This document shows positions 1,076 to 30,844 of a stretch of DNA of 32,428 nt, one piece after another; position 1 is the stretch's first letter, and the number at the start of each line of letters is the position of its first letter. Origin of the DNA: Phycisphaeraceae bacterium (GTDB lineage: Bacteria; Planctomycetota; Phycisphaerae; Phycisphaerales; Phycisphaeraceae); assembly GCA_019634195.1 (NCBI GenBank), contig JAHQVV010000223.1, positions 1 to 32,428 of the forward strand. Reading direction: 5' to 3'. The position numbers and the translations under genes were made by a program. Under the pieces are notes generated by a model. That model worked only from the letters and a program-made list of their open reading frames with translations, was not told where the DNA came from and searched no databases.

Positions 1076-2194
1076 GTGCGCTGCGTCGTGATTTCGCGGT
1101 ATCTTGTCAGGATGAACCGACGCCTATGCCTACTGCTCTGGTCCCTGCCGCTTTTGTTTTCGGGGGCATGCCAATCTCACACGGAAGCTGTGTTTGTTTC
1201 GGGCGAGGATGCGGCCATCGCGTCGCCCGCGCAGGCGGTCAGCGAATCCACCCGTGGTGCGGCGATCGCGCTGCTGGAAGCGTTAACCGATGAACAAACG
1301 AAGCTTGCGGTTTACGATATCAAGGCCCCGCTCCGCAAAGACTGGCACTTCGTCCCCCGCGAGCGCAAGGGTCTGATGCTCGGCGACATGACCGTTAAGC
1401 AGAAAACGCTCGTACACCAACTCATGCAGACCGCGCTCTCGGACAGCGGCTACCTCAAAGCGACCGACATCATCTGGCTTGAGTCCGTGCTGTACGAGAT
1501 GAGCAACCAGAACCCGATGCGCGACCCCGGCAAGTACGGCCTGATCATCTTCGGCGACCCGACGGATGAAACCGCCGCGTGGGGCTGGCGGTTCGAAGGC
1601 CACCACCTGTCGATCAACCTGACCTACACCCCCGAAGGTATCGGCGTGACGCCGCTCTTCTTCGGCACCAACCCCGCCGTCGTTCAACAGGGCCCCTTAG
1701 CCGGTAAGCGCATCTTGGCCGATGCCCACAACCTCGCGGTCGAGTTGGCGAAGTCGATGGATGAGGAGCAACGCAAGAAGATGATGCTCGACAAGAAGCC
1801 ACGCGATGTGATCACGGGCCCGGGGCGGGAGTTGGCTCTATATAAAGATGAGCCGCGAGGGGGTATCGATATCCACCGGCTGGATCAGGAGAAAATTGAT
1901 AGGGCCCATCGATTGGTGAGTCTGCATTTGTATTACAACCTAGAAATCCAGCACCGTATGATTCAAGCGAGAGAAATCAGTAAGAAAGAGGCACCTGACG
2001 ATCATCAACTGATGTTTGCGTGGGCCGGTCCGATCGATGCGGACAAGCCTTTTTATTATCGCATACAGTCGGGCACGATGATTATCGAATACTCCTGCCA
2101 AGGCAAGAATCACGTCCACGCCGTGGTACACGATCTCGAAGACCCGCTGCAGGAAGACCTGCTCAAGAAGCACTTTGAGCAGCACGAGCACTGA
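1076..2194 (+). CDS. DUF3500-type protein, probable lipoprotein/exported
   Basis: ORF of 372 aa; N-terminal signal with LLFSGAC (start may be the internal Met at MNRRLCLL); 'YGLIIFGDPTDETAAWGWRFEGHHLSINLTY' is typical of DUF3500 proteins. Confidence 0.75.
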   Translation: MRCVVISRYLVRMNRRLCLLLWSLPLLFSGACQSHTEAVFVSGEDAAIASPAQAVSESTRGAAIALLEALTDEQTKLAVYDIKAPLRKDWHFVPRERKGLMLGDMTVKQKTLVHQLMQTALSDSGYLKATDIIWLESVLYEMSNQNPMRDPGKYGLIIFGDPTDETAAWGWRFEGHHLSINLTYTPEGIGVTPLFFGTNPAVVQQGPLAGKRILADAHNLAVELAKSMDEEQRKKMMLDKKPRDVITGPGRELALYKDEPRGGIDIHRLDQEKIDRAHRLVSLHLYYNLEIQHRMIQAREISKKEAPDDHQLMFAWAGPIDADKPFYYRIQSGTMIIEYSCQGKNHVHAVVHDLEDPLQEDLLKKHFEQHEH

Positions 2195-2206
2195 GGTTTT
2201 TGTGTA

Positions 2207-2282
2207 GTGGTGACGCGCAGCGTCCCGTTCAAGCCATCTATCACGATTCGCACGGGGCGCTACGCGTCTCCCGCGACACGCC
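2207..2282. repeat. Imperfect inverted repeat, GTGTCGCGGG family copy 1
   Basis: GACGCGCAGCGTCCCGTT (left) versus reverse complement of ACGGGGCGCTACGCGTCTCCCGCGACAC (right); same family as 6604..6705. Confidence 0.65.
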
Positions 2283-2285
2283 GCG

Positions 2286-3125
2286 CTATTCAATCACAAT
2301 CGTCTCTGGATCAAAATCCGCCTTCGGCGGCTGCGGGTTCATCTTCTCCAGCGTATCCACAAGCACCTTCGCCACCAGCAGGTTACGGAACCACCGCCGC
2401 TCGGCGGGCACGGCGTACCACGGCGCGTGCTCGTGGCTCGTCTGCTGCATCACCTCGCTGTAGCGGTCCTGGTACTCCCCCCAGCGGGCGCGTTCCTCGA
2501 GGTCGGCGACGTTGAACTTCCAGTGCTTGTCCGGCCGATCGAGCCGGCGTTGCAGCCGCTCCTTCTGGTAGTCCTTGCTGATGTGCAGGAAGAACTTGAC
2601 GATGGTGGTGCCTTCGTCGGTGAGCATGCGTTCGAAGTCGTTGATGTGGCCGACGCGTTTGGACCAGATCTTCTCCGGGGCCAGGCTCTTGACGGCGACG
2701 GTCGCGGCGTCTTCGTAGTGGCTGCGGTTGAAGACGCCGATGGTCCCGCGCTTGGGGGTGTTGCGGTGGATCCGCCAGAGGTAGTCGTGGGCCAGTTCGT
2801 TGTCGCTGGGCTTCTTGAAGCTCTTGACGTGGCAGCCCGCGGGGTCGATCGGGCCGAACACGGCCTTGAGCGTCGAGTCCTTCCCGCCCGCGTCCATCGC
2901 CTGCATCACGACGAGCAGCGACCGCTTCTGCTCCGCGTAGAGGTTTTCCTGCAGCTCGACGAGCCGGTGGCTGAGCGCCTGGAACGCGTCTTTCCCGTCG
3001 TCTTTTTCGAGCCCGCCATCGACATAGGTCTCTCGCTTGCGGAGGTGGAAGGCCTTGCCCGGATTGACGCGGTAGGGCGTGGTGTCGAAATCGATGTGCG
3101 TGGCATGTTTGTGTTTATTACCCAT
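2286..3125 (-). CDS. ppk2: Polyphosphate kinase 2 family protein
   Basis: 279 aa; Walker-A-like MDAGGKDSTLK, 'GVFNRSHYED', 'FFLHISKDYQKERLQRRLDRPDKHWKF' typical of PPK2. Confidence 0.92.
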   Translation of the reverse strand: MGNKHKHATHIDFDTTPYRVNPGKAFHLRKRETYVDGGLEKDDGKDAFQALSHRLVELQENLYAEQKRSLLVVMQAMDAGGKDSTLKAVFGPIDPAGCHVKSFKKPSDNELAHDYLWRIHRNTPKRGTIGVFNRSHYEDAATVAVKSLAPEKIWSKRVGHINDFERMLTDEGTTIVKFFLHISKDYQKERLQRRLDRPDKHWKFNVADLEERARWGEYQDRYSEVMQQTSHEHAPWYAVPAERRWFRNLLVAKVLVDTLEKMNPQPPKADFDPETIVIE

Positions 3126-3446
3126 ATGTGATTTGTAATCGATCGGCGGGCTGCCTGCTCGTCGAGCATCGGGGTTGGGCTGATCATTTCGTGTGCAGTG
3201 TGGGCCTAGGGCGGTGATCTGGGAAAGAACGTTTTACCCATCACTTGCGCCACAGAGTGAACGCCACAGTGGCTCAAGCGGGGATTATTGATTGTTTATG
3301 CAGCGAGCCGCTGAGTTCTGGTGTTTTGGCACACCCTTTGTCAGTGCTCTGGTGACAGGCCACGACCTTGAGCCTGAGGGGCCCCCGCCACGCTGGCGAC
3401 CGGCCAATCGGATTTGTACCAACAGCAAACCAGAAGGGACTCCACG

Positions 3447-4408: not shown

Positions 4409-5599
4409 ATGTCTCAAGAACGCACACGCCTCGTCGCGGGCTGCATGACCGGTACCTCACTGGACGGCCTGGACGTCGCGCTCGTAAAAATCATCGGCAC
4501 CGGCCTGGAGATGAAGGCCGAGCTGCTCGGCCACCACGCGCTGTCGATGCCCGAGGACCTGCGCAGCACGCTGAAGTCACTCGCATCGGGTGAGCCGAAC
4601 GAGCCGATCACCTACATGCGTGCGGCCCGCGCACTCGGCGAACTCCACGCGGATGGTTTACAGCAACTGTTGGCCGGCGGGCTCGTCTCGCCGCTTGATC
4701 AACCGGTTGACTTTGTCGCCGCCCATGGCCAAACCATCTGGCACGCCCCGAGAGATGAACAAAAAATTTCCGGCGGCGGGCCCAAGAGCTGGCAACTCTT
4801 CGACCCCTGGCCGATCGTTAAGCGGCTAAACGTCCCCGTTTGCTACGACCTCCGACAGGCCGACCTGATCGCCGGCGGCGAAGGCGCCCCGCTGACCCCG
4901 ATCGCGGATTGGGTGATGTATCGGGAACACGCCGACATCGTGGCGAACCTCGGCGGGGTCCTGAACATCACGAAACTCGATGCAGATCCAAGCCGGATCG
5001 AAGGCGCCGATCTGTACCCCTGCAACCTGCTGCTCGATGGTCTGTGCAAGCGGTATTTCGACAAGGCTTACGACACTGACGGCGAGTTGGCTGGGCGCGG
5101 GTGTATCCAGCCGGCCTTGGTTGAGGTGATTTTTGAGGCGATTGATGAAGCGTGCCAAGGGAAGAAGTCTTTGGGCCGCGAACAGTTCTCTCCTGATTGG
5201 CTTGATCGTTTGGTTGGGTTGATCGGTGTTGTGGAGTCGCCAGAAGATGTCTTAAGCACCGCAGCACGATTGGTAGCGGTTCAACTCGGCGGTGAGTTCC
5301 GTGAAGCCGGCGTCCCGCAAGAGCGGATGATCCTCGCGGGCGGCGGGGCCAACAATCAAACGCTTGTCAAGGTTATCGAGAAAAGGGGCTATCGCGAGGT
5401 GCGCCGGTCCGACGACCTCGGCATCCCCTGTGAAGCACGCGAGGCGTTTGCGTTCGCGGTACTCGGGGCGTTGTCGCAGGACGGCGTGCCTATCTCGCTG
5501 CCGCAGGTGACGGGGGCAGCAGGCCCCGGTGTCGCGGGGGTTTGGGCGGGGGCACGACGGCGTCGTTCACTCCGAGACTGTTCGCCGGGTAGACTTTGA
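4409..5599 (+). CDS. anmK: Anhydro-N-acetylmuramic acid kinase
   Basis: GCMTGTSLDGLDVALV, VDFVAAHGQTIWHAP, ADIVANLGGVLNIT, ILAGGGANNQTL motifs; start at 4409 (MSQERTRLVAG). Confidence 0.93.
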   Translation: MSQERTRLVAGCMTGTSLDGLDVALVKIIGTGLEMKAELLGHHALSMPEDLRSTLKSLASGEPNEPITYMRAARALGELHADGLQQLLAGGLVSPLDQPVDFVAAHGQTIWHAPRDEQKISGGGPKSWQLFDPWPIVKRLNVPVCYDLRQADLIAGGEGAPLTPIADWVMYREHADIVANLGGVLNITKLDADPSRIEGADLYPCNLLLDGLCKRYFDKAYDTDGELAGRGCIQPALVEVIFEAIDEACQGKKSLGREQFSPDWLDRLVGLIGVVESPEDVLSTAARLVAVQLGGEFREAGVPQERMILAGGGANNQTLVKVIEKRGYREVRRSDDLGIPCEAREAFAFAVLGALSQDGVPISLPQVTGAAGPGVAGVWAGARRRRSLRDCSPGRL

Positions 5600-5605
5600 A
5601 TTGCC

Positions 5606-6595
5606 ATGACCACCCCCACCCCCAGCGAAGACCGCGGGCACCTCGCGACCGAGCAGCGCCTCGCCGCCGCCGCCGCGATCGATGCGCTGTCGGTCGAGGC
5701 GACCCTCCGGCTGATGAACACGCAGGACATGGAGGTCCCCCTGGCCATCCGCAAGGCGATCCCGCAGATCACGAAGGTCGTCGAGATCGTTGTCGCGGGG
5801 ATGAAGCAGGGCGGCCGACTGATCTATTGCGGCGCGGGGACGTCGGGTCGCTTAGGCGTGCTGGATGCCAGCGAGTGCCCGCCGACGTTTTGTAGCGACC
5901 CGGATCAGGTCGTCGGCATCATCGCGGGCGGCGACACCGCGCTGCGGAGCGCAGTCGAGGGCGCAGAAGACCAGCGCGACGGTGCCGTGCCAGACCTGGA
6001 TAAACTCAAGGTCACCGAGCACGACACCCTCATCGGCATCGCGGCGGGGGGCACGACACCCTACGTCTGGGGCGCGATCGATTACGCCCACAGCCGCGGC
6101 GCAAAGACGTCGCTAATGACCTGCGTGCCGATCAAGACGCTGATGACTCGGCCGCGTGCGAAGGTGGTCAAGCCCAATGAGCCGGTGAGCATCCCGCCTA
6201 GGCCCGAACTGCCCGCGCCGGTGTACCAGCCGATCGAACTGCTAGTCGGGCCCGAAGTCTTGACCGGTTCAACTCGCATGAAGGCCGGCACCGCCACCAA
6301 GCTTGCCCTCAACATGATCTCAACGACCGCCATGCTGCAGATGGGCAAGGCCTGGGGCAACCTCATGGTCGACCTCCGCGCGACCAACGCGAAACTCATG
6401 GACCGCTCGATCCGCATCGTCTCGTCGCAGGCTAGGATCACGCGCGAAGAAGCGGCGGACGTCCTCACGAAAGCCGAGGGCCGGGTCAAGCCCGCGCTCA
6501 TCATGGCCACCCGGGGCGTCGAACTAGGCGAAGCGAAGCGGCTGCTCGATCGGCACGAGGGCAAGTTAAGGCCGATCCTCGGCCCGCCGCGGTGA
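5606..6595 (+). CDS. murQ: N-acetylmuramic acid 6-phosphate etherase
   Basis: SIS-domain: [65 protein letters not shown]. Confidence 0.94.
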
Positions 6596-6603
6596 TGCCT
6601 GTA

Positions 6604-6705
6604 CGGTGTCGCGGGCGACGCGAAGCGTCCCGTTCGACGCTTCTAAACCAAGTCTCGCTCACAGATCACCGAAACGTGGGACACTTCGCGTCGCCCGCGA
6701 CACCG
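6604..6705. repeat. Inverted repeat, GTGTCGCGGG family copy 2
   Basis: Arms 6604..6631 CGGTGTCGCGGGCGACGCGAAGCGTCCC and 6678..6705; 27/28 nt complementary. Confidence 0.9.
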
Positions 6706-6729
6706 TTCTGTCGAGGTTATCATGCCTGT

Positions 6730-19683: not shown

Positions 19684-20241
19684 ATGATGCCGCTCCACGA
19701 ACGACTCGATTTTGGTTTTCAAACAACAGTGACCGTACTGTCTTTTTATCTGCTTGGCTGTGTGTTGTTGGTGATCGGGATATTGCTTTATGACCTATTG
19801 CTGACCACTCGGTCATCCCCAGACAGTGCCGGCCTAATGGTCTTCTTAATTTTGGCAACCGTCTTTGTGCTGCCTTATGGTTTCTTTATTGGTGTGGGGG
19901 CTTGGATCAGCGCGCTCTTGTTCCCCGCGGTCGCGCGGTCGCAGTTGTATTGGTTTGCTCCTGCTGGCACTGGGTTGCTCTCCAGCGCTGGGCTGTATCT
20001 GCTGACGCTAGAAACCACCTTCGATCCGTTTGAGATCGAAGAGTTTGGCTTGATACTCCTTTTGAGCGGCATCGGCGTTTTCTTCTCACGCATCATCGGC
20101 CTGACATTCGGCTGGGCTCGGCATTGGTATCCCCCGGGAGCTTGTGATTATTGCGGCTACGATCTGCGCGAAACCCAACCCGGCGGGACCTGCCCCGAGT
20201 GTGGCGAAGTGGCAGAGAAGCCCTTTCTACGCCGATCTTGA
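19684..20241 (+). CDS. Multi-pass membrane protein with C-terminal zinc ribbon
   Basis: ORF 19672..20241, start uncertain; several TM segments; C-terminal CDYCGYDLRETQPGGTCPECGE, a motif I associate with planctomycete proteins. Confidence 0.65.
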   Translation: MMPLHERLDFGFQTTVTVLSFYLLGCVLLVIGILLYDLLLTTRSSPDSAGLMVFLILATVFVLPYGFFIGVGAWISALLFPAVARSQLYWFAPAGTGLLSSAGLYLLTLETTFDPFEIEEFGLILLLSGIGVFFSRIIGLTFGWARHWYPPGACDYCGYDLRETQPGGTCPECGEVAEKPFLRRS

Positions 20242-20369
20242 CCCAATAACGAAAAACCACCCCCTTTTGAACCCAGCGGGGGAGAAAACGTCCGATTGAT
20301 ATTGATAGCCCGTGTCCTGCTGACGTAGGATGTAGGGACGTTTTATCCCATGTTTCCGGAAGACCCATC

Positions 20370-22295
20370 ATGACTAGCCCGATCCACCGCAGTATTACGA
20401 AGGTCCAACGCAGAATCGCCGCTAACCGTGTGCTCCGTGCAACGGGCTGGGCGGTGCTTGTCGGCCTGCTGGCGGCGTCGGCGATGCTCATCGTCGATCG
20501 GCTGCTTCCCATGACCGTGATGCCCATCTGGACCTACGCGATCGCGGGGGGCGTGGCGCTGGTGGTCGCCATGATCTTCGCCCTGCAGAACCTCCCCGGT
20601 GAAGCGGATGCGGCGGTGCTGCTCGACGACAAGCTCGGGCTCAAGGACAAGCTCGGCACCGCGCTGTACGCCGCGACGCTCGAACAGCAAAACGAACTGA
20701 CGCAGCAGGTCGCCCGTGAGGCGGATGTGGCCGCGGACCAGGCGCGTGTGATGGTCGCCCAAGCGGCGCCGATCGAGTTCGCCCGGGTCTGGAACTACAC
20801 GCCGATCGCCGCGGCGGTGCTGCTGGCGGTTCTGTTCCTCGTGCCCGAAGACCTGGGCGACCCGCTGGGCCAGGTCGCTGCCGCAGAGGCCGAGGAGCAA
20901 GAAAAGCGCTTGGTCGAGGAAGGCGAAGTCATTATTAATACGATCGAGCAGGGGCTCGACGAGCCGGAGGAAGAGGGCGAGCAGAAGATCGCCGAGGGTC
21001 TGCCCGACGAGCTGCGTGACCAGCTGGTGTCGATCTCCGATCAGGTGCGCAACGACCCGAGCAGCGCTGAAGAAAAACTGAAAGAAGCCGAGTCGCTAAT
21101 CAGCGATGCCGAGTCGCGCTTGGGCGAGCAGGCGGACGTGATCGAGGCGGCGTACAACCCGCTGCGCAACGCGGCGAGCGGTTTGGACCCGGGTCAGACC
21201 GGCCCGGCCGACGAGTTCACCCGCGCGATGAACCAGGGCGACTTCGAGAAGGCCAAGGAAGCCTTAGAAGACATGCAGGAGGCGATCGAGAAGGGCGAGT
21301 ACAGCGAAGAAGAACGCCAGCAGCTCCAGCAGCAGCTCAACAACGTCGCCCAGCAGCTCAATCAGCAGGCCCAACAAGCCCAGCAGGCCCAGCAGCAAGC
21401 CGCGCAACAGGCCCAGCAGCAGATGGCCCAGCAGCTCCAGCAGTCGGGCATGAGTCCCCAGCAAGCCCAGCAGATGGCACAACAGATGGCCCAGCAGGCT
21501 CAGCAACAACAGCAGCAGGGCCAGCAAGGCCAGCAGCAACAACAGGGTCAGCAAGGACAACAAGGTCAGCAGGGCCAAAGTCAGCAGCAGATGCAGCAGC
21601 AGTTGCAACAGGCCTTGCAGCAGCAGGGCATGAGCCAGCAGCAGGCCCAGCAGCAAGCGCAACAGATGATGCAGCAGATGCAGCAACAGATGCAGCAGAG
21701 CCAGGGCCAGCAGCAGAGCGGGCAGATGCAGCAGCAGCTCAGCCAGGGCCTGCAGCAGATGGCCAGCCAGTGCCAGAACCCCGGCCAAGGCCAGCAAGGT
21801 CAGCAGGGACAGCAAGGCGGCCAACAAGGCCAGCAGGGCGGTCAATCCGCTCAACAAGCGATCAACCAGATGGCTCAGATGCAGCAGCAGCTCCAGCGGA
21901 TGCAGCAGCAGCAGGGCCAGATGCAGCAGGCCATGCAGCAGATGCAGCAGATGCAACAAGGCCAGGGCGGCGGCCAAGGCCCGGGATGGGGCAGTTCGCC
22001 CGGCGGCAACCCGTACGGCCCCGAGAACCAGTCTTACCAGCACCAGAGCTACGCCGCCCAGGACATCCAGCAGGGCGAGGGCCGGGTCATCGCGTCCTGG
22101 ACCGAGAACGGCGAGGTCGCGCCCGGGGAGGCTACCGTGCAGTTCAACGCGTCACGTACCGAGGCGGTCCAGGCCGCGGAACGAGCCGTGACCGAAGACC
22201 GCGTGCCACGCCGCTACCACGAGTCGGTCAAGGACTACTTCCAGCAGCTGCCCGAAGACCCTAACGCCGGCAAGGCACCGGCGGCACCGCGCTAA
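20370..22295 (+). CDS. Gln-rich membrane-anchored protein, first gene of MoxR/vWA operon
   Basis: Two N-terminal TM segments, acidic/coiled region, then extensive Q/M/G-rich low-complexity tract and a conserved-looking C-terminus (VIASWTENGEVAPGEATVQF...VPRRYHESVKDYFQQLPED). Confidence 0.8.
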   Translation: MTSPIHRSITKVQRRIAANRVLRATGWAVLVGLLAASAMLIVDRLLPMTVMPIWTYAIAGGVALVVAMIFALQNLPGEADAAVLLDDKLGLKDKLGTALYAATLEQQNELTQQVAREADVAADQARVMVAQAAPIEFARVWNYTPIAAAVLLAVLFLVPEDLGDPLGQVAAAEAEEQEKRLVEEGEVIINTIEQGLDEPEEEGEQKIAEGLPDELRDQLVSISDQVRNDPSSAEEKLKEAESLISDAESRLGEQADVIEAAYNPLRNAASGLDPGQTGPADEFTRAMNQGDFEKAKEALEDMQEAIEKGEYSEEERQQLQQQLNNVAQQLNQQAQQAQQAQQQAAQQAQQQMAQQLQQSGMSPQQAQQMAQQMAQQAQQQQQQGQQGQQQQQGQQGQQGQQGQSQQQMQQQLQQALQQQGMSQQQAQQQAQQMMQQMQQQMQQSQGQQQSGQMQQQLSQGLQQMASQCQNPGQGQQGQQGQQGGQQGQQGGQSAQQAINQMAQMQQQLQRMQQQQGQMQQAMQQMQQMQQGQGGGQGPGWGSSPGGNPYGPENQSYQHQSYAAQDIQQGEGRVIASWTENGEVAPGEATVQFNASRTEAVQAAERAVTEDRVPRRYHESVKDYFQQLPEDPNAGKAPAAPR

Positions 22296-22318
22296 TTTGT
22301 TGATGGTTCGTTTAGTTC

Positions 22319-22389
22319 ACCACAGAGAACACAGAGGGCCACAGAGTAGATTTTGACTTTGCTCTGTGGCCCTCTGTGTTCTCTGTGGT
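22319..22389. repeat. Perfect inverted repeat (CACAGAG family), empty hairpin
   Basis: 28-nt arms ACCACAGAGAACACAGAGGGCCACAGAG (22319..22346) and exact reverse complement (22362..22389); 15-nt loop TAGATTTTGACTTTG. Confidence 0.97.
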
Positions 22390-22480
22390 AAAACACGAGC
22401 ACCAATAAACTTCGAAGAGTTAATCGATCCTAGACGCCTTCCTCCTCATCCTGGCCCTCGCCTACCTGACCACCGCGGGG

Positions 22481-25400
22481 GTGCTGGCGATGTGGCTGGC
22501 CTGGATCGGGCTGGCGTGGGCAACAGGCAAGGTTGAGAACCCGACAATGCCGTTGCCGCAGCTCATCACGCTCGGCGCGTTGGCCGCCGTCGCGGCCGGC
22601 CTGTGGTTCGCGTTCGGCCTGACCGACAAGCTCACGTTTGATCGGCCCAGCCTCCTGCTGCTCGCACTCATCGCGCTGCCGATCTTCGCGCTCGGGGCGT
22701 GGTCCCTGCAGCAGCTCGGCCCGGCAAGGCGTTGGGCGTCCGTCGGCCTGCGCGTCTTCGTGCTCCTGTTGATCACGGTCATGCTCGCCGGCTTCCGCTC
22801 GGTGCAGACCCACGACGAGCTGACCGTCGTCTCGCTGATCGATACCAGCGATTCGGTCCGCAAGTTCTTCACGCCCCCGCTCGGGCCCGACGGCCAGCCG
22901 CAGGACTACGAGCAGTGGCTCGCGTCGTATTTCCAGCAGGCCGGCGGCGATAAGCGCAGCGAAGACTATTGGTCCGTTCAGACTTTTGATGGCCGGCCGA
23001 CGATCCGCCTGAGCCCGTCGCTTGGCGAGGTGACGATCCCGCTGGGCTCGATCGATCAGCCGTACGAGGGCTCGAACGTGCAGCGCGCCATCGAGTCGGC
23101 CATGGCCGCCAAGCAGCGCGGCGACTCGGCCCTGCGCATCGTGCTGGTCAGCGACGGAAACCTCGACGGCGAGGTCATGGCCGCTGTCCAGGCCGCCGCC
23201 GCGGCGGGCGTGCAGATCGACGTCGTCCCGCTGCAGTACAAGGTCAAGGGCGAGGTCATGGTCGAGGCCGTGCGTGCCAACCCCGAGGCTCGCAAGGGAC
23301 AGACGGTCAAGGTCTCCGTCGAGCTGCGATCCGCCGACCGCGTGCCCGGCCAGCTCAAGCTTAAGCATAACGGCAAATGGGTCGACCTCAACGGCGCGGC
23401 CCAGGGCGAGGGGCTCCGCATCGAGGCCAAGGAGTGGCAGACGCGCATCGACGCCGGTGAAGAAGAGATCGGCCTCTACGCGCTGACCAAGTACATCGAC
23501 CGGCCCATCAGCGAAGCGGGCGTCAACACCTTCGATGCGATCTTCGAGCCGGATGACAAAACGGGCTTAGCCAACACAATCGTTTCGAACGACACCGGCC
23601 AGGCCTTCACCCTCGTCGCCGGACCGGGCAAGGTGCTCGTCGTCGATGGCGTCGATGGGCAGGCCGGGCAGATCCTCCCCCGGGCCCTGGCCGAGCGCGG
23701 CATCGACACCATCCTAGCGCCTGTTACCGCTATGCCCAGCCGGCTGCGCGACATGCGCAACTACGATGCGATCCTCTTCAACAATGTCGCGGCCGACAAC
23801 GTCCCGCCCAAGGTCCAGAAGAACCTCACCCGCTACGTCCACGACCTGGGCGGTGGCTTCGTGATGATCGGCGGGCCCGACTCCTTCGGTGCCGGCGGCT
23901 GGACCAACACCGACATCGACAAGTACATCCTCCCCGTCCACTGCCAGATCCCCACGCAGAAGATCCTGCCCTCCGGGGCGCTGGTCCTCGTCATCGACCG
24001 GTCCGGCTCGATGTTCGGCAGCGTCGGCGGCACCAGCCAGACCCAGCAGAACGTCGCAGCCGAGGCCGCGATCCTCGCGCTCAAGTCGATGTACCCGCAG
24101 GACAAGGTCGGCGTCGTCGCCTTCGACACCCAGGCCCACTGGATCGTCGACCTGCAGTACAACAAAGACCCCGCGGGCATCGCCAAGAAGATCCGCGCGA
24201 TGCAGCCCGGGGGGGGCACGGACATCCGCGTCGGCGTTGACGCCGCCTACAAACGGCTCGCCGCGGAGCCCGTCGGCGAGTCCGCGATCAAGCACATGAT
24301 TGTCATCTCTGACGGTCACGGCGACTTCCACCAGAACCCCTTCCAACTCGGCGGCAGGCTCGGCCAGGCCGGCGTCACGATCTCCACCATCGGCGTGGGC
24401 GACGGTCACAACGCCGCCGGCCTCCAGGCCTTGGCCAACACCGGCAACGGCAATTTTTACCCCGTCACCAACCCCGCCAACCTGCCGCAGGTCTTCATCA
24501 AAGAGGCCCGCGCGATCCGCAAGAACCTGATTAAAGAAAAACCCTTCGACCCGGTCGTCCGCAACGTCGCTTCGCCGATCATGGTCGGGATCAACGACGT
24601 CCCGACGCTGCGCGGGTTCGTGCTGACCGGGGCCAAGTCTGACCCGCGCATCTTCACGCCGATCGTCGCCGACGAAGGCGAGCCGATCTTCGCCCACCAC
24701 CAGGTCGGACTGGGCCGCGCCGCCGCGTTTACTGCGGATGCCACCAACCGCTGGGCGCAGGACTGGCTGGGCAACTGGGCCAGCGGCAGCAACTACGCCG
24801 ACTTCTGGGCCCGCACCGTCCGCCAGATCGCTAGGCCCGCCGCGTCGACCCAGGCCGACCTCACCACCACCGTCGCCGGCGACACGATGACGATCCGCCT
24901 CGACGCCGCGGACGATGTCGACTTCAACGCCTCCCGCGGAGCGTCCTTCGGCAACAACCTCCAGGTCACCGGCAGCGTTGAAGACCCCGACGGCAACCTC
25001 ATTAACGTCACCCTCGAGCAGGTCGGCCCGGGCATCTACGAGGCCCGTATCCCCGCTCGGCAGGCGGGTAACTACATCGTCGACCTGAACATGCGATCGC
25101 CCGATGGCGAGGCCCGACGCGTCATCGGCGGCTCGAGCAAGGCGGCCGGCGGCGAGCTACGGAACTTCCAGTCCAACGTTGCGCTGCTCCAGCAGATCGC
25201 CGAGATGACCGGCGGGCGCGTCTTGGACCCGGGCGACCCGGCGGCCGCGAACCTCTACAACCGCGACGTGCCGATCGAGAGCACCAGCACACGCCCGCTG
25301 CGCTGGCAGCTTATGCCGTTCTTGTTGGCGCTCTTGCTGCTGGACGTCGCCTGTCGACGCATCGCGTGGGAGGGCCAGGAGGTCGCCGCCTGGGCCAAGG

Positions 25401-25831
25401 GCCGGGCCAACGCCATCGCAGGCATTACCCGCACCCGCAAGGTCGAGAGCGAGAACACCATGGCCGCGCTCAAGGCCAAACGCGAAGCAACCACCGAGAA
25501 GCTCAACAAGCCTGCTGAAGCGACCCCGCTCGGCGGCCTGGCCGCCAAGGTCAAGGGCAGTACCAACGGCGAAGCAAAAACAAGCAAACCCAAAGCGAAG
25601 CCCGCGACCAGCAAGACCCGCAAGTTCGTCGCCAGCGAAGAAGACCTCACCAAGGCTAGCGACGACTTCAGCGACGCCGTCGGTGGCGCAAAGGAAGGCG
25701 CAGCCGCCAAACCCATCGTTACCGCCGCGATGCGCAAGAGCGACAAACCCCAGGACCAAGGCCCCATGACCTCAAGACTGCTCGACGCCAAACGCCGAGC
25801 CCAAGAACGTATGAACGAGCAAGAGGAATAG
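22481..25831 (+). CDS. Large membrane protein with vWA domain and glutamine-amidotransferase-like region
   Basis: MIDAS motif VLVIDRSGSMFG, GVVAFDTQAH, GGGTDIRVGVDAAY; 'YVHDLGGGFVMIGGPDSFGAGGW'. GTG at 22481 is the first canonical start; frame is open back to about 22424. Confidence 0.85.
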   Translation: MLAMWLAWIGLAWATGKVENPTMPLPQLITLGALAAVAAGLWFAFGLTDKLTFDRPSLLLLALIALPIFALGAWSLQQLGPARRWASVGLRVFVLLLITVMLAGFRSVQTHDELTVVSLIDTSDSVRKFFTPPLGPDGQPQDYEQWLASYFQQAGGDKRSEDYWSVQTFDGRPTIRLSPSLGEVTIPLGSIDQPYEGSNVQRAIESAMAAKQRGDSALRIVLVSDGNLDGEVMAAVQAAAAAGVQIDVVPLQYKVKGEVMVEAVRANPEARKGQTVKVSVELRSADRVPGQLKLKHNGKWVDLNGAAQGEGLRIEAKEWQTRIDAGEEEIGLYALTKYIDRPISEAGVNTFDAIFEPDDKTGLANTIVSNDTGQAFTLVAGPGKVLVVDGVDGQAGQILPRALAERGIDTILAPVTAMPSRLRDMRNYDAILFNNVAADNVPPKVQKNLTRYVHDLGGGFVMIGGPDSFGAGGWTNTDIDKYILPVHCQIPTQKILPSGALVLVIDRSGSMFGSVGGTSQTQQNVAAEAAILALKSMYPQDKVGVVAFDTQAHWIVDLQYNKDPAGIAKKIRAMQPGGGTDIRVGVDAAYKRLAAEPVGESAIKHMIVISDGHGDFHQNPFQLGGRLGQAGVTISTIGVGDGHNAAGLQALANTGNGNFYPVTNPANLPQVFIKEARAIRKNLIKEKPFDPVVRNVASPIMVGINDVPTLRGFVLTGAKSDPRIFTPIVADEGEPIFAHHQVGLGRAAAFTADATNRWAQDWLGNWASGSNYADFWARTVRQIARPAASTQADLTTTVAGDTMTIRLDAADDVDFNASRGASFGNNLQVTGSVEDPDGNLINVTLEQVGPGIYEARIPARQAGNYIVDLNMRSPDGEARRVIGGSSKAAGGELRNFQSNVALLQQIAEMTGGRVLDPGDPAAANLYNRDVPIESTSTRPLRWQLMPFLLALLLLDVACRRIAWEGQEVAAWAKGRANAIAGITRTRKVESENTMAALKAKREATTEKLNKPAEATPLGGLAAKVKGSTNGEAKTSKPKAKPATSKTRKFVASEEDLTKASDDFSDAVGGAKEGAAAKPIVTAAMRKSDKPQDQGPMTSRLLDAKRRAQERMNEQEE

Positions 25832-25837
25832 ATTTTT

Positions 25838-26354
25838 AACCACAGATGCACACGGATGGACACGGATTCATGACCGAAATTGGTAGGACACTTCAGGAAT
25901 CAGATGTGATAGGTAGGCAGATTGTCGCTATCTACCAGTCTTATCAATTGCAAGATGATTGGCTTGATGTATTTGACACATGCTTCCGACTCGATACGGG
26001 CTTGGTAATCTCGATGGGCATCGCCATTAATCCGTGTGATTTAACTGACGAAACGAAGCAACTTATTCCTGACGATCCGGAAGTGCGAAATCAATTGATC
26101 GGTCAAGCCATCGAAGGTGTCTATTTTGACGCTGAAGCTGGAGATGATCTGGAAGATGGCGACCTTTGTATCAAATTAGAAAATGGAAGATTTTTGATGA
26201 CTGTATCAATGGCTCCACACGGCACCGGCGGTGCAGGAATGTGGGTTAATGATCCCGATGATCCGCCCTTTGACTCAATGAAGCGGTATCGCTTTGAACC
26301 AGAAGCAAATGTGAATTGATTTGAATCCGTGTCCATCCGCGTTCATCTGCGGTT
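25838..26354. repeat. Inverted-repeat pair (CACRGAT family) enclosing one ORF (cassette A)
   Basis: Arms 25838..25870 AACCACAGATGCACACGGATGGACACGGATTCA and 26322..26354 (reverse complement AACCGCAGATGAACGCGGATGGACACGGATTCA); 30/33. Confidence 0.95.
25870..26319 (+). CDS. Small hypothetical acidic protein inside inverted-repeat cassette A
   Basis: 149 aa from ATG at 25870 (alternative start 25846 inside the arm); MTEIGRTLQESDVIGRQIVAIYQSYQ...; AT-richer than neighbours; stop 2 nt before the right arm. Confidence 0.7.
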   Translation: MTEIGRTLQESDVIGRQIVAIYQSYQLQDDWLDVFDTCFRLDTGLVISMGIAINPCDLTDETKQLIPDDPEVRNQLIGQAIEGVYFDAEAGDDLEDGDLCIKLENGRFLMTVSMAPHGTGGAGMWVNDPDDPPFDSMKRYRFEPEANVN

Positions 26355-26373
26355 CCAAAAAGGATTGAAAATT

Positions 26374-27417
26374 ATGGCAGCATCCGAACCCCAAGCCAAC
26401 GAACAAAACATCCTGCAACAGGCCGACGCGTTCCGTTCGTCGTACAAGAGCGTCCGCGAGCAGATCGCCAAGATGGTCGTCGGCCACGACGAGATCATCG
26501 ACGGCGTCCTGACCTGCCTCTTCACCGGCGGCAACGCGCTCCTGGAAGGCGTGCCCGGCCTGGGTAAGACGCTGCTCATCCGTTCGCTGAGCCAGGCGCT
26601 CTCGCTGGACTTTAGCCGTATCCAGTTCACGCCCGACCTCATGCCCGCGGACATCACCGGCACGACCATCGCCGTGGAACAACAGCACGACGACGGCAGC
26701 ACGTCCCGCGTCTTCCAGTTCCGAAAGGGGCCGATCTTCGCCCAGATCGTCCTGGCCGACGAGATCAACCGCGCGACGCCGAAGACACAGTCGGCCATGC
26801 TCGAAGCGATGCAGGAACGCAGCGTTACCGTCGGCGGCACGACCTACCCGATGAGCAAGCCCTTCTTCGTCATGGCGACACAGAACCCCATCGAACAAGA
26901 AGGCACCTACCCGCTGCCCGAGGCGCAGCTGGACCGCTTCATGCTCAAGCTCGAGGTCGGCTACAGCAAACGCGAAGACCTGCACGAGATCGTCAACCGC
27001 ACCACCATGGCAAGCTCGCCAACGATCGACCCTGTGCTCGACGCGGAAAAGATCGTCGACTTCCAGAAGGTCATCCGCCAGGTCATCATCGCGCCGCACG
27101 TGCAGGACTACGCGATCCGTGCGGTGCTCGCGACGCACCCCGGTGGCGAGTTCGCTGGCAACATGGCCAGCCAGTTCCTCCGCTTCGGCGGCAGCCCCCG
27201 CGCATGCCAGGCCCTGGTCCTCGGCGGCAAGGTGAAAGCACTGTTGGATGGCCGAGCCCACGTCAGCGTCGAAGACATCAAAGCCGTCATGCTCCCCGCG
27301 CTCCGTCACCGCGTCCTGATGAACTTCGAAGGCCAGGCCGAGGGCGTAACGCCAGACATGGTCATCAACGACATCATCGACAAGCTGCCCGTGGAAGCTG
27401 CGGGGTTGAAGGTTTGA
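26374..27417 (+). CDS. MoxR family AAA+ ATPase
   Basis: MVVGHDEIIDGVLTCLFTGGNALLEGVPGLGKTLLIRSLSQAL, DEINRATPKTQSAMLEAMQE, ATQNPIEQEGTYPLPEAQLDRFM. Start 26374 (MAASEPQ); the 26329 start would translate the repeat arm. Confidence 0.95.
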   Translation: MAASEPQANEQNILQQADAFRSSYKSVREQIAKMVVGHDEIIDGVLTCLFTGGNALLEGVPGLGKTLLIRSLSQALSLDFSRIQFTPDLMPADITGTTIAVEQQHDDGSTSRVFQFRKGPIFAQIVLADEINRATPKTQSAMLEAMQERSVTVGGTTYPMSKPFFVMATQNPIEQEGTYPLPEAQLDRFMLKLEVGYSKREDLHEIVNRTTMASSPTIDPVLDAEKIVDFQKVIRQVIIAPHVQDYAIRAVLATHPGGEFAGNMASQFLRFGGSPRACQALVLGGKVKALLDGRAHVSVEDIKAVMLPALRHRVLMNFEGQAEGVTPDMVINDIIDKLPVEAAGLKV

Positions 27418-27432
27418 GGTTGTAGAGTTTTT

Positions 27433-27870
27433 CACAGAGGTCACGGAGGCACAGAGATCACAGAGGAAGGCAAATGGATTTTGAACCTTGGAAAAACCAT
27501 CCGCAGAGTGATTCGGAGTATTTGCAAAGACCCGAGGCTCAGCCTCACCTAAAGGTGATGGAAGTGTTGCGTGAATGGGATCCGATCGGAGTGGATCCAA
27601 ACAATACGCCTGGAGCTTTTGATGAATATGACAGCTACGCAGGGCCAATTGTGAGTTTTTTGGATCAGGGAGTCGATATTGACGTGATGTTGAATTACTT
27701 AAGGCGGATAGTCCATGACCACATGGGTTTGACCAATTTTGAAGAAAATAAAACACGGCAACTACTGAGAGAGTTAATAGCTTGGTGGGCTGAATGGAAC
27801 AATCACCAGTTGGATCAAAACTAAATCCCCTGCCTTCCTCCGTGACCTCTGTGCCTCTGTGTCCTCCGTG
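27433..27870. repeat. Inverted-repeat pair (CACRGAG family) enclosing one ORF (cassette B)
   Basis: Arms 27433..27472 CACAGAGGTCACGGAGGCACAGAGATCACAGAGGAAGGCA and 27831..27870 (reverse complement CACGGAGGACACAGAGGCACAGAGGTCACGGAGGAAGGCA); 35/40. Confidence 0.95.
27474..27824 (+). CDS. Small hypothetical protein (tentatively DUF1871-like) inside inverted-repeat cassette B
   Basis: 116 aa; 'VLREWDPIGVDPNN...DEYDSYAGPIVSFLDQGVDIDVMLNYLRRIV'; GAGGAAGG RBS-like sequence lies in the left arm; stop 6 nt before the right arm. Confidence 0.7.
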   Translation: MDFEPWKNHPQSDSEYLQRPEAQPHLKVMEVLREWDPIGVDPNNTPGAFDEYDSYAGPIVSFLDQGVDIDVMLNYLRRIVHDHMGLTNFEENKTRQLLRELIAWWAEWNNHQLDQN

Positions 27871-27893
27871 GTAAAGCGAAGCGCAAACAAATC

Positions 27894-28829
27894 ATGACAA
27901 TCGCATCCACAACCCGAATCTCAAAAACAGGCGACCTCTTATCGCCTGATTTTATGAGGCAACTCGACAAGCTCGACGTTATGTCGCGGAAGATGCTGCG
28001 CGGCAGTCAGCAGGGCGAGCGGCGGACCAAGAAGAAGGGCCAGTCCGTCGAGTTCGCCGACTACCGCAGCTACGTCGTCGGGGATGACCTGCGTTTTATC
28101 GACTGGAACCTCTACATGCGGCTGGACAAGCTGTTCATCCGCTTGTTTATGGAAGAAGAAGACTTGTCCGTCTCGATCGTGCTCGATGTCACCGGGTCGA
28201 TGGACTACGGTGAGCCGAACAAGCTCGAGTACGCGAAGAAGCTCTGCGCGGCGCTGGGCTACATCTCGCTGACGCACCACAACCGAACGAGCCTGTATAC
28301 GATGGCTGACGGCCTGCTCGAGTCCTCGCAGGGTATGCGCGGGAGGCGCCCGATCCCGCAGATGCTCGAATTCCTCAATCGTCAACAGGCGCTATCGCCC
28401 GACGCGCAGCGCCCCGGCGACATGACCAGCACGTTCAAGTCCCTGGCGGTCCAGAACCAGCTCCCCGGCGTCACGATCGTTGTTTCTGACTTCTGGGATA
28501 AGGGCGACGTCTCCGACGCTTTCCGCTTCCTGGCCGGCGACAAGAAGGACACCTACCTGATCCACCTGCTCTCGCCTCAGGAGGTCGACCCGGTCAAGGG
28601 CAAGGTCGTCGGCGACCTGCGCCTGACTGACCTTGAAGACGGCGACATTGCCGAGGTGTCGGTGAGCCCCGCGCTCGTTAAGAAATACAAGGCCACCCTG
28701 CAGGCCTACTGCAACCACATCAAGGACCAGGCCCACCGACGCGGACTGGCGTACATGATCAGCGAGACAGACGTGCCGTTCGAAGTGATGGTGCTGCAGT
28801 ACCTGCGGCAGAGGGGGTTGCTCGCTTAA
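27894..28829 (+). CDS. DUF58 domain-containing protein
   Basis: GERRTKKKGQSVEFADYRSYVVGDDLRFIDWNLYMRLDKLFIRLFMEEEDLSVSIVLDVTGSMDYGEPNKLEYAK: DUF58 signature. Confidence 0.95.
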   Translation: MTIASTTRISKTGDLLSPDFMRQLDKLDVMSRKMLRGSQQGERRTKKKGQSVEFADYRSYVVGDDLRFIDWNLYMRLDKLFIRLFMEEEDLSVSIVLDVTGSMDYGEPNKLEYAKKLCAALGYISLTHHNRTSLYTMADGLLESSQGMRGRRPIPQMLEFLNRQQALSPDAQRPGDMTSTFKSLAVQNQLPGVTIVVSDFWDKGDVSDAFRFLAGDKKDTYLIHLLSPQEVDPVKGKVVGDLRLTDLEDGDIAEVSVSPALVKKYKATLQAYCNHIKDQAHRRGLAYMISETDVPFEVMVLQYLRQRGLLA

Positions 28830-30844
28830 TGGGATTTATCTCGCCACTCGTCGCGGCCATCGCAGCAGGGATCACCATCCCCGCTTTAGTATCGCTCTAC
28901 TTCCTCAAGCTCAAACGCAAGCGGATGGTGATCCCGTCGACGCTGCTCTGGCAGCGCGCGGTACAGGACCTTCAGGTCAACGCGCCGTTCCAGAAGATCA
29001 AGAACAACCTGCTGCTGTGGGTGCAGTTGTTATTGCTTTTGCTGCTGCTTGTCGCGATGGCCCGGCCGACGCAGAACGCGTTCGCCTCGCCGGGCGAGCG
29101 GGTTGTGATCGTCATCGACCACTCCGCCTCGATGAACACGACCGACGCGGACGGAGAGTCGCGCCTCGAGGCCGCGAAAGAACGTGCACTCGAGGTCGTT
29201 GCCAACCTCGACGCCGGAGGCGGTGATCAGGCGGGGGCCGGGGCGATGGTGATCGCCTACGCGCACCGCACGGTCGTGCTGCAGGACTTCACAACGGACC
29301 TGGCCCGCGTCCGCAGCGCGATCCGCGGGGTCGAGGCGACGGACCAGAAGACGCACCTGGACAGCGCGATCGCCGCGGTCGAGCCGCACGCACGCCAGAC
29401 CGGCGGCGACGACAAGCTCTACGTCCACGTCTTCAGCGACGGCCGGGTGAGCAAGTCCACCGACGAGCCGCTCGCCCTTGCGAACGCGGAAGTCCGCTAC
29501 CACAGCATCGGCGATTCCGGTGCAACCTCCGGCAGCAACCTCGCGATCGCGGCGCTCAGCGCCAGGCGGGACCTCGAGAAACCCCAACTCGTGCAAGTCT
29601 ATGCCAGGCTCGCCAATTACAGCGACCAGGCGGTCACGACCAACGTCCGCTTCATGGCCGACGACCGTGTGCTCTCGACGCAGCGGGTCACGGTCCCCGC
29701 CGTATCGAAGGTGGCCTTGGCCCCGGGCGTGCTGCCTCCGCCGGGCGAGACGGGGCTGACGTTCGACATGACCTGGCTGGGCGATGCGCTGATCACGATC
29801 AGCCACGACCACCAGGACCTGCTTCGGGCGGACAACTCGGCCCGGATGCTGTTGACGCCCTCGCGCGAGCTGCGTGTCCTCATGGTCACCACCGGCAACG
29901 GGTACCTCGAACTGGCCTGCCAATCCGCGGGCATCGAGAATCTCGTGCAGATGACGCCCGACCAGTTCGAGAAGCAGGACCCCAAGCGCCTGCGGCGTGG
30001 TGGCTGGGACGACGCGGCCATCGCCGGGGCGAGCGGCGCCGCGGGCGAGGGCTTCGATGTCATCGTGTTTGATCGCTACGCACCCAAAGACGTCCCGCTG
30101 ATTAACAGCCTGTACTTCGGCGTCGTCCCGCCGTTGGAAGGCTTATCACGCAAAGACACCCGGCCCGACTCACCCGCCAACGAGCTGATCACGCAGTGGG
30201 ACCGCTCCAGCGAGTTACTCCGTAATGTTGAGCTCAGCGACATCCCCTTGCGTCGGCCCGGGCGTCTGGTCGTGCCGGTCGACGGGACGGTGATGGCGAT
30301 CGGGCGCGAAGGGCCGGTGATGGCGGAAGTCACACGCGACACGGTCCGGCACGTGGTGGTCGGCTTTGACCTGTACGAATCGCTCTGGCCGCACCGGATC
30401 AGCTTCCCGGTCTTTATCAAGAACGTGCTGCCGACCCTCGGGCTCGATGGCAACACGCAGGAGGCGGGCATCGGCTACCACACCGGCGAGAACGCGGTGG
30501 TCCTGGTCGACACCGAGATCGACGCGCTCAAGTACACCGGCCCGGCCACGATCGCCGGCCGAGCGCTGGGCACGACCTTCGCCGTCGACGCCTTCCCCCG
30601 TGTCGGCCTGTACGAGACCAAGGCGGATGTCCCGACCCGCTACAAACAACTCGCGGTCAACCTGCTTGACACCGCAGAAAGCGACCCACGCGTCGCCGAG
30701 GTCTTAGAGATCGGCACGAGCAGCCAGGCCCAGCAGGCCCAGGCCGTCGAAGTCCGCAAAGAGATCTGGCCCTGGTTCGTGTGGGGTGCGCTCGCGGTGC
30801 TATTGATGGAGTGGATGGTGTATGCGCGGCGGATGCATATTTAA
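28829..30844 (+). CDS. BatA-like N-terminal domain / vWA protein
   Basis: MGFISPLVAAIAAGITIPALVSLYFLKLKRKRMVIPSTLLWQRAVQDL (BatA N-term), MIDAS VIVIDHSASMNTTD, C-terminal TM; overlaps DUF58 stop (TAATG). Confidence 0.9.
   Translation: MGFISPLVAAIAAGITIPALVSLYFLKLKRKRMVIPSTLLWQRAVQDLQVNAPFQKIKNNLLLWVQLLLLLLLLVAMARPTQNAFASPGERVVIVIDHSASMNTTDADGESRLEAAKERALEVVANLDAGGGDQAGAGAMVIAYAHRTVVLQDFTTDLARVRSAIRGVEATDQKTHLDSAIAAVEPHARQTGGDDKLYVHVFSDGRVSKSTDEPLALANAEVRYHSIGDSGATSGSNLAIAALSARRDLEKPQLVQVYARLANYSDQAVTTNVRFMADDRVLSTQRVTVPAVSKVALAPGVLPPPGETGLTFDMTWLGDALITISHDHQDLLRADNSARMLLTPSRELRVLMVTTGNGYLELACQSAGIENLVQMTPDQFEKQDPKRLRRGGWDDAAIAGASGAAGEGFDVIVFDRYAPKDVPLINSLYFGVVPPLEGLSRKDTRPDSPANELITQWDRSSELLRNVELSDIPLRRPGRLVVPVDGTVMAIGREGPVMAEVTRDTVRHVVVGFDLYESLWPHRISFPVFIKNVLPTLGLDGNTQEAGIGYHTGENAVVLVDTEIDALKYTGPATIAGRALGTTFAVDAFPRVGLYETKADVPTRYKQLAVNLLDTAESDPRVAEVLEIGTSSQAQQAQAVEVRKEIWPWFVWGALAVLLMEWMVYARRMHI

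Follow-up and report, generated by a model that had tools for sequence, protein, structure and literature searches.

From comparative analysis, we read cassette B, a single gene enclosed by inverted repeats between moxR and a DUF58 gene of a Phycisphaeraceae bacterium, as a filled copy of a dispersed family of palindromes, here called class I hairpins, whose loop appears able to hold one foreign gene; from sequence comparison we give this reading a probability of about 0.7. Bare, empty and filled alleles suggest that single genes are shuffled into operons by a mechanism not yet described, and a literature search, with subscription journals mostly outside its reach, found no paper describing these hairpins. 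The source genome (G000) is a 3.62-Mb MAG in 246 contigs, with near relatives annotated as Phycisphaeraceae or Phycisphaerae. The window is the whole stretch of 32,428 nucleotides that was analysed, and the gene order around B is Q-rich gene, vWA, cassette A, moxR, cassette B, DUF58 and BatA (Table 1). The 641-aa gene upstream of the first vWA gene contains a very Q/M-rich low-complexity stretch (21320-21970, CAGCAG/CAGATG repeats).

An inverted-repeat search returned the arms of B as the longest inverted repeat of the window (45 nt, 84% complementary). Their score is 27.5, whereas the best inverted repeat in twenty 32-kb windows simulated with an order-2 Markov model reached 16.5, and 40 of the 45 left-arm bases pair with the right arm in the minimum-free-energy fold of the single RNA strand. 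The 40-nt arms matching at 35 of 40 positions in the preliminary description were recovered as the core of this repeat (27433-27472 against 27831-27870, 88% identical), and its start and stop coordinates for the enclosed gene were exact. Both arms carry four CACAGAG/CACGGAG words and GGAAGGCA, and thereby show the RCNNRAG words and AAG(G/A)CA inner end by which class I is recognised, with TTTTTC on the left and TTTACC on the right in place of TTGAACC as outer ends. The inner arm ends flanking the cargo are GGAAGGCA and TGCCTTCC, and a Shine-Dalgarno-like GAGGAAGG lies at -11 to -4 relative to the ATG. Read inwards, the right arm contains this motif too, so that the cassette may have a symmetric ribosome-binding site, and the inner arm of class I copies that have GGAAGGCA might serve as such a site in either orientation.

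Cassette A, on the other side of moxR, has arms that match at 87% and score 25.5 against the same Markov maximum. The claim that the repeats of A and B are related stands: the arms of A are real and built of a related but different word, CACRGAT. The two enclosed proteins are indeed unrelated, as family and homology searches gave no relation between P0001 and P0002. For P0002, the ATG in frame just past the arm is a likelier start than the listed ATG inside the left arm, and no homologue was found in 40 relatives.

Table 1. Coordinates of the two cassettes, their host operon and filled hairpins on other stretches
Location	Feature	Coordinates	Strand	Remarks
Window	Empty CACAGAG hairpin	22316..22392	.	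15-nt loop; between Q-rich gene and vWA1
Window	vWA / GATase1-like protein	22481..25831	+	host operon
Window	Left arm of cassette A	25833..25870	+	CACRGAT words
Window	Cassette A ORF P0002	25870..26319	+	GC 45%; likely start 25870 rather than 25846
Window	Right arm of cassette A	26322..26359	-	
Window	moxR AAA ATPase	26374..27417	+	host operon
Window	Left arm of cassette B	27428..27472	+	TTTTT, CACAGAG/CACGGAG words, inner GGAAGGCA
Window	Shine-Dalgarno-like GAGGAAGG	27463..27470	+	inner end of left arm, 3 nt 5' of ATG; putative function
Window	Cassette B ORF P0001	27474..27824	+	116 aa, GC 44%; WDPIGV...DEYDSY family; putative orphan immunity-like product
Window	Right arm of cassette B	27831..27875	-	
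Window	DUF58 protein	27894..28829	+	host operon
Window	BatA / vWA protein	28829..30844	+	host operon
G000, C41	Filled CACRGAG hairpin	2133-2660		157-aa ORF, no family
G000, C58	Filled CACRGAG hairpin	19890-20485		lipoprotein-like ORF, no family
G000, C105	Filled CACRGAG hairpin	2685-3147		GxxExxY / PDDEXK_3, broken by one stop
G001, L266	GCCAAGG-word hairpin	5230-5746		118-aa CxxC ORF without significant Pfam family

The same arms occur elsewhere in the genome, as judged by a census that combined pattern searches, an evenly spaced 400-kb sample of G001 and selected stretches. The pattern CACRGAG N0-4 CACRGAG gave 54 matches in the source genome and none in the reversed-pattern control. These matches correspond to about 18 sites, nearly all with two inverted arms (the partners are weak at C79, C207 and C226). 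About 14 of the palindromes are short-loop empty hairpins and four enclose unrelated ORFs of low GC, the cargo having 42-51% GC vs 59-67% in the flanks. The scan proposed in the preliminary description thus found further arm pairs with unrelated ORFs, both in the genome (C41, C58, C105) and in the clade; together with orthologous sites that are bare, hold an empty hairpin or are filled, they support its claim of a process over coincidence. Moreover, the unbiased sample of G001 held 21 inverted repeats, against 0 in Markov sequence; REPs were among them, as was the filled GCCAAGG-word hairpin of L266 (Table 1).

Over 69 class I elements one architecture recurs, in which TTGAACC at the outer end is followed by some three RCNNRAG words, often by AAG(G/A)CA at the inner end, and then by the loop. 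The outer ends read TTGA followed by ACC-R-C on both sides, with ACC at 93-100%, and the inner end is AAGGCA in 41 and AAGACA in 20 of the 138 arms (controls: reversed ACGGAA 0, TGCCTT 6). Element sizes are bimodal (67-298 vs 379-532 nt, plus three near 1 kb), in a sample that mixes pattern-selected with gene-selected loci and therefore yields no filled fraction; among pattern-selected elements of G010, 30 of 33 measure at most 298 nt. A 5-nt flanking repeat of the kind left by target-site duplication (TSD) was seen in 5 of 68 elements, near the null, with a single tempting case (AGTTC in G004). Nesting of one hairpin within the loop of another was seen in at least four cases in G010 and in one case in G001. 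At L358, L359 and L361 (G010) and L342 (G001), it is often a 67-68-nt CACAGATT-word hairpin that sits inside a CGCAGAG or CGCCAAG hairpin.

The bimodal sizes, the scattered empty copies that share the ends of filled ones and the broken GxxExxY copy in C105 would also suit MITE-like internal deletions of a TIR transposon, the filled elements being remnants with passenger genes and the transposase being absent or elsewhere. We regard this as a tentative possibility, for near-identical arms in one genome hold unrelated genes and not one ancestral gene, a transposase-coding copy is absent among the cassettes read, there is no TSD, and the arms are tandem words, of which usual TIRs are not built.

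Reading of the moxR operon junctions in 15 relatives showed that both arm words and occupants vary. In G002, moxR stands between a GxxExxY gene in CGCAGATGAAC arms on its upstream side and a P0001 homologue with CACAGAG arms on its downstream side, and an empty CGCCAAG hairpin precedes BatA. In G003, moxR is followed by a P0001 homologue whose arms have decayed, and BatA is preceded by a GxxExxY gene in CACCGATGCA arms. A four-helix-bundle IVP ORF in CGAATG arms (PF05635, 8e-15) occupies the moxR-DUF58 site of G001, and two empty hairpins lie at junctions of the same operon. GxxExxY genes were also found at operon junctions of G010 and G018, in the latter as a cassette at the moxR-DUF58 site, while in G012 the hairpin after moxR is empty and a P0001 homologue precedes BatA; the junctions of G009, G011 and G016 are clean. 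All recognised cargo ORFs at these junctions read in the operon direction.

Since G002 and G003 have P0001 homologues at the moxR-DUF58 junction too, B could be inherited. Ancestral membership of the operon, which the preliminary description had set against its own claim, accordingly keeps one point in its favour: the homologue is present at this junction in two of four same-genus genomes and occupancy may predate the species. The view that B is simply an ancestral gene of the operon, its hairpin being an incidental terminator or attenuator, is refuted as a full account by the junction variation among relatives, and we hold it extremely improbable; the one site carries a four-helix-bundle cassette, an empty hairpin, a GxxExxY cassette or nothing, the arms flank the ORF on both sides and not only 3', and the same arms enclose other ORFs elsewhere in the genome.

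Tracing the flanks of four sites through the four same-genus genomes, a comparison of empty with filled sites as suggested in the preliminary description, showed that sister species differ at orthologous sites in both occupancy and occupant. Site C54 is bare in G003 (12-nt junction), an empty hairpin in G000 and an empty hairpin with a 16-nt loop in G004. The G002 hairpin is of the same type as that of G004, and its loop of 712 nt contains DUF429 (PF04250, 4.7e-55); G001 has a different insert, with another ORF. The DUF429 insert of G002 sits between inner GCAAGGCA and TGCCTTGC, as B does between its own inner ends. Site C58, filled in G000, is in G001 an empty hairpin holding a second hairpin in its loop, and other ORFs without arms are present in G002 and G003. 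Likewise, C41 has an insert without arms in G002, and C105, filled in G000, is without hairpin in G002 and has a REP-like palindrome in G003. Because armless inserts occur at the compared sites, not every insertion in these hotspots needs hairpins; the compared intergenic sites are general insertion hotspots, and hairpins are one of several things landing there. These sister-species bare, empty and filled alleles make the hypothesis directly testable.

The G002/G004 pair, with similar arms and different loop content, also suits an account without any dedicated enzyme, in which hairpins act as homologous patches and loops are swapped by homologous or single-strand-annealing recombination between incoming and resident arms. 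Dozens of hairpins with common words per genome, and one arm type holding unrelated cargo, would be expected from it. We consider it possible, if doubtful, as hairpin dispersal and nested hairpins are left unexplained, and as the P0001 family occurs in both CACAGAG and GATGAACGC arms, so that cargo also crosses between arm types. Furthermore, the arms of filled elements match their own partner best (87% identity within vs 71% between elements with the same word, p=2e-11), which argues for a unit rather than a mosaic; in empty elements the values are 82% within vs 76% between.

Movement of the hairpins as REPs by Y1 tyrosine transposases was considered as well. Y1 genes are present in 16 of 21 relatives, with two in the source genome, and gene ends are favoured by REPs too (PMC3733652). 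A RAYT/REP origin was rejected, being very improbable, because the 30 Y1 loci are flanked by other, GC-rich REPs and hairpin abundance is uncorrelated with Y1 counts (rho 0.25, p=0.27). The window itself contains GC-rich REP-like palindromes GTGTCGCGGGCGACGCGAAGCGTCCC (2248-2279, and 6603-6637 and 6678-6706 within 6603-6706), which resemble the repeats flanking the Y1 gene at C198 of the source genome; these palindromes and that gene are a separate REP/RAYT system. At site C105 of G001 (L341), what from its sequence looks like a Y1-type transposase gene, bounded by ACTGGTTGCTTAAGCAACCAGT palindromes, lies exactly where G000 has its GxxExxY cassette.

P0001 is a member of the WDPIGV...DEYDSY family. 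Searches for a known identity gave no Pfam match (PF05635 included) and an NCBIfam match that was weak and far under cut-off; its AlphaFold model is all-helical (pLDDT 77), with no fold match and no convincing sequence relative in the PDB, and Rfam returned no known RNA family at gathering thresholds. Among 80 GTDB loci of the family, arms surround only the three Phycisphaeraceae copies. A relative in a Chlamydiae MAG (L207) lies 2 nt behind an RHS protein (RHS_repeat 5.7e-48, C-terminal DUF4258), one in Paraburkholderia (L233) directly behind an RHS-repeat protein, and one in Variovorax (L200) 174 nt behind a weaker RHS protein, its direct-downstream position being graded probable; the RHS-neighbour regex was noisy and these three alone were retained. 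With 3 of 80 loci in the position of an immunity gene, P0001 may be an orphan immunity-like protein, and no RHS-type toxin gene is found among the neighbours of B.

The commonest occupant found was the GxxExxY protein, of the PD-(D/E)XK superfamily by Pfam, which occurs mostly in such hairpins. At 25 of 30 GxxExxY loci the arm score exceeds the 95th percentile of a null built from swapped flanks. For the 27 arm-bounded cassettes, with neighbours called by longest ORF, the upstream neighbour was codirectional in 24 and usually ended within ~25 nt of the arm, and the sites were tandem co-oriented (12), tandem anti (2), convergent (10) or divergent (1). Hairpin counts correlate with GxxExxY counts (rho 0.69, p=6e-4, n=21, no phylogenetic correction) and more weakly with IVP counts (0.56). 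In this context, GxxExxY is the leading candidate enzyme for moving hairpins, although the correlation would also be expected if hairpins merely carry it as frequent cargo.

Returning to B as a filled class I hairpin, hairpin and cargo may together form a non-autonomous cassette, mobile or exchangeable, which would settle at the 3' end of transcribed genes, where a cargo that has little or no room for its own promoter could be expressed by run-on or read-through transcription. The transcript of B would form a stem of ~45 bp between moxR and DUF58, which may be an RNase III target. Beyond this, a dedicated system can be envisaged in which a cassette-encoded protein, with GxxExxY as best candidate, would recognise hairpins built of tandem words and act on them in trans, moving or filling them, so that unrelated genes are dealt into operons. 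The hairpin cassettes between genes and the 23S rRNA intervening sequences (IVSs) would then form one element class; we think this wider scheme unlikely.

A second hairpin class, with tandem-heptamer arms around PF05635 ORFs, was above the null's 95th percentile at 18 of 30 loci. Such PF05635 (23S_rRNA_IVP) genes lie in inverted tandem-heptamer arms far from rRNA genes at L283, L286, L296, L303 and similar loci, and the arms also occur as empty copies (L356:6334, L362:10363, L364:439).

Among known systems, the nearest architecture is the 23S rRNA IVS with its S23p/IVP ORF (PF05635), which likewise has complementary ends, a stem and one small ORF in the loop. The Coxiella IVS carries tandem heptamers (GACAGAT) 5' of its ORF and a mobile origin has been proposed (PMC4990558). 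PF05635 ORFs in intergenic tandem-heptamer hairpins of the relatives, one of them at the moxR-DUF58 site of G001, extend this likeness. Unlike an IVS, B lies between protein genes and not in a 23S rRNA helix, P0001 is not S23p/IVP, and hairpin cargo is highly varied. The hairpins offer a comparative handle on the origin and spread of ORF-bearing 23S rRNA IVSs, and on what GxxExxY and four-helix-bundle IVP proteins, both very common, do.

REP/RAYT systems (REPtrons) share with the hairpins dispersed palindromes, mostly at gene 3' ends and in a similar copy range, but the hairpins are of another sequence class, have unrelated genes in their loops, and no Y1 gene was read within their arms. With MITEs and TIR non-autonomous transposons they have in common inverted ends, small size and empty copies; they differ in their short-word arms and nesting, and in that neither TSD nor parent transposase was found among the loci read. 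Relatives of B directly behind RHS proteins in three loci recall orphan immunity genes and acquired interbacterial defence clusters, from which B differs in standing without a cluster and in having a protective role that is putative. Finally, integrons hold promoterless single-ORF cassettes and hairpin DNA (attC), and the class I hairpins resemble them in both respects and in unrelated cargo. Here, however, two opposed arms stand one on each side of the ORF instead of a single 3' attC, sites are dispersed singly and not arrayed, and no integrase is present among the operon genes examined near B. If true, the proposed reading would add a second, non-integron route to single genes, ready to express, at operon ends.
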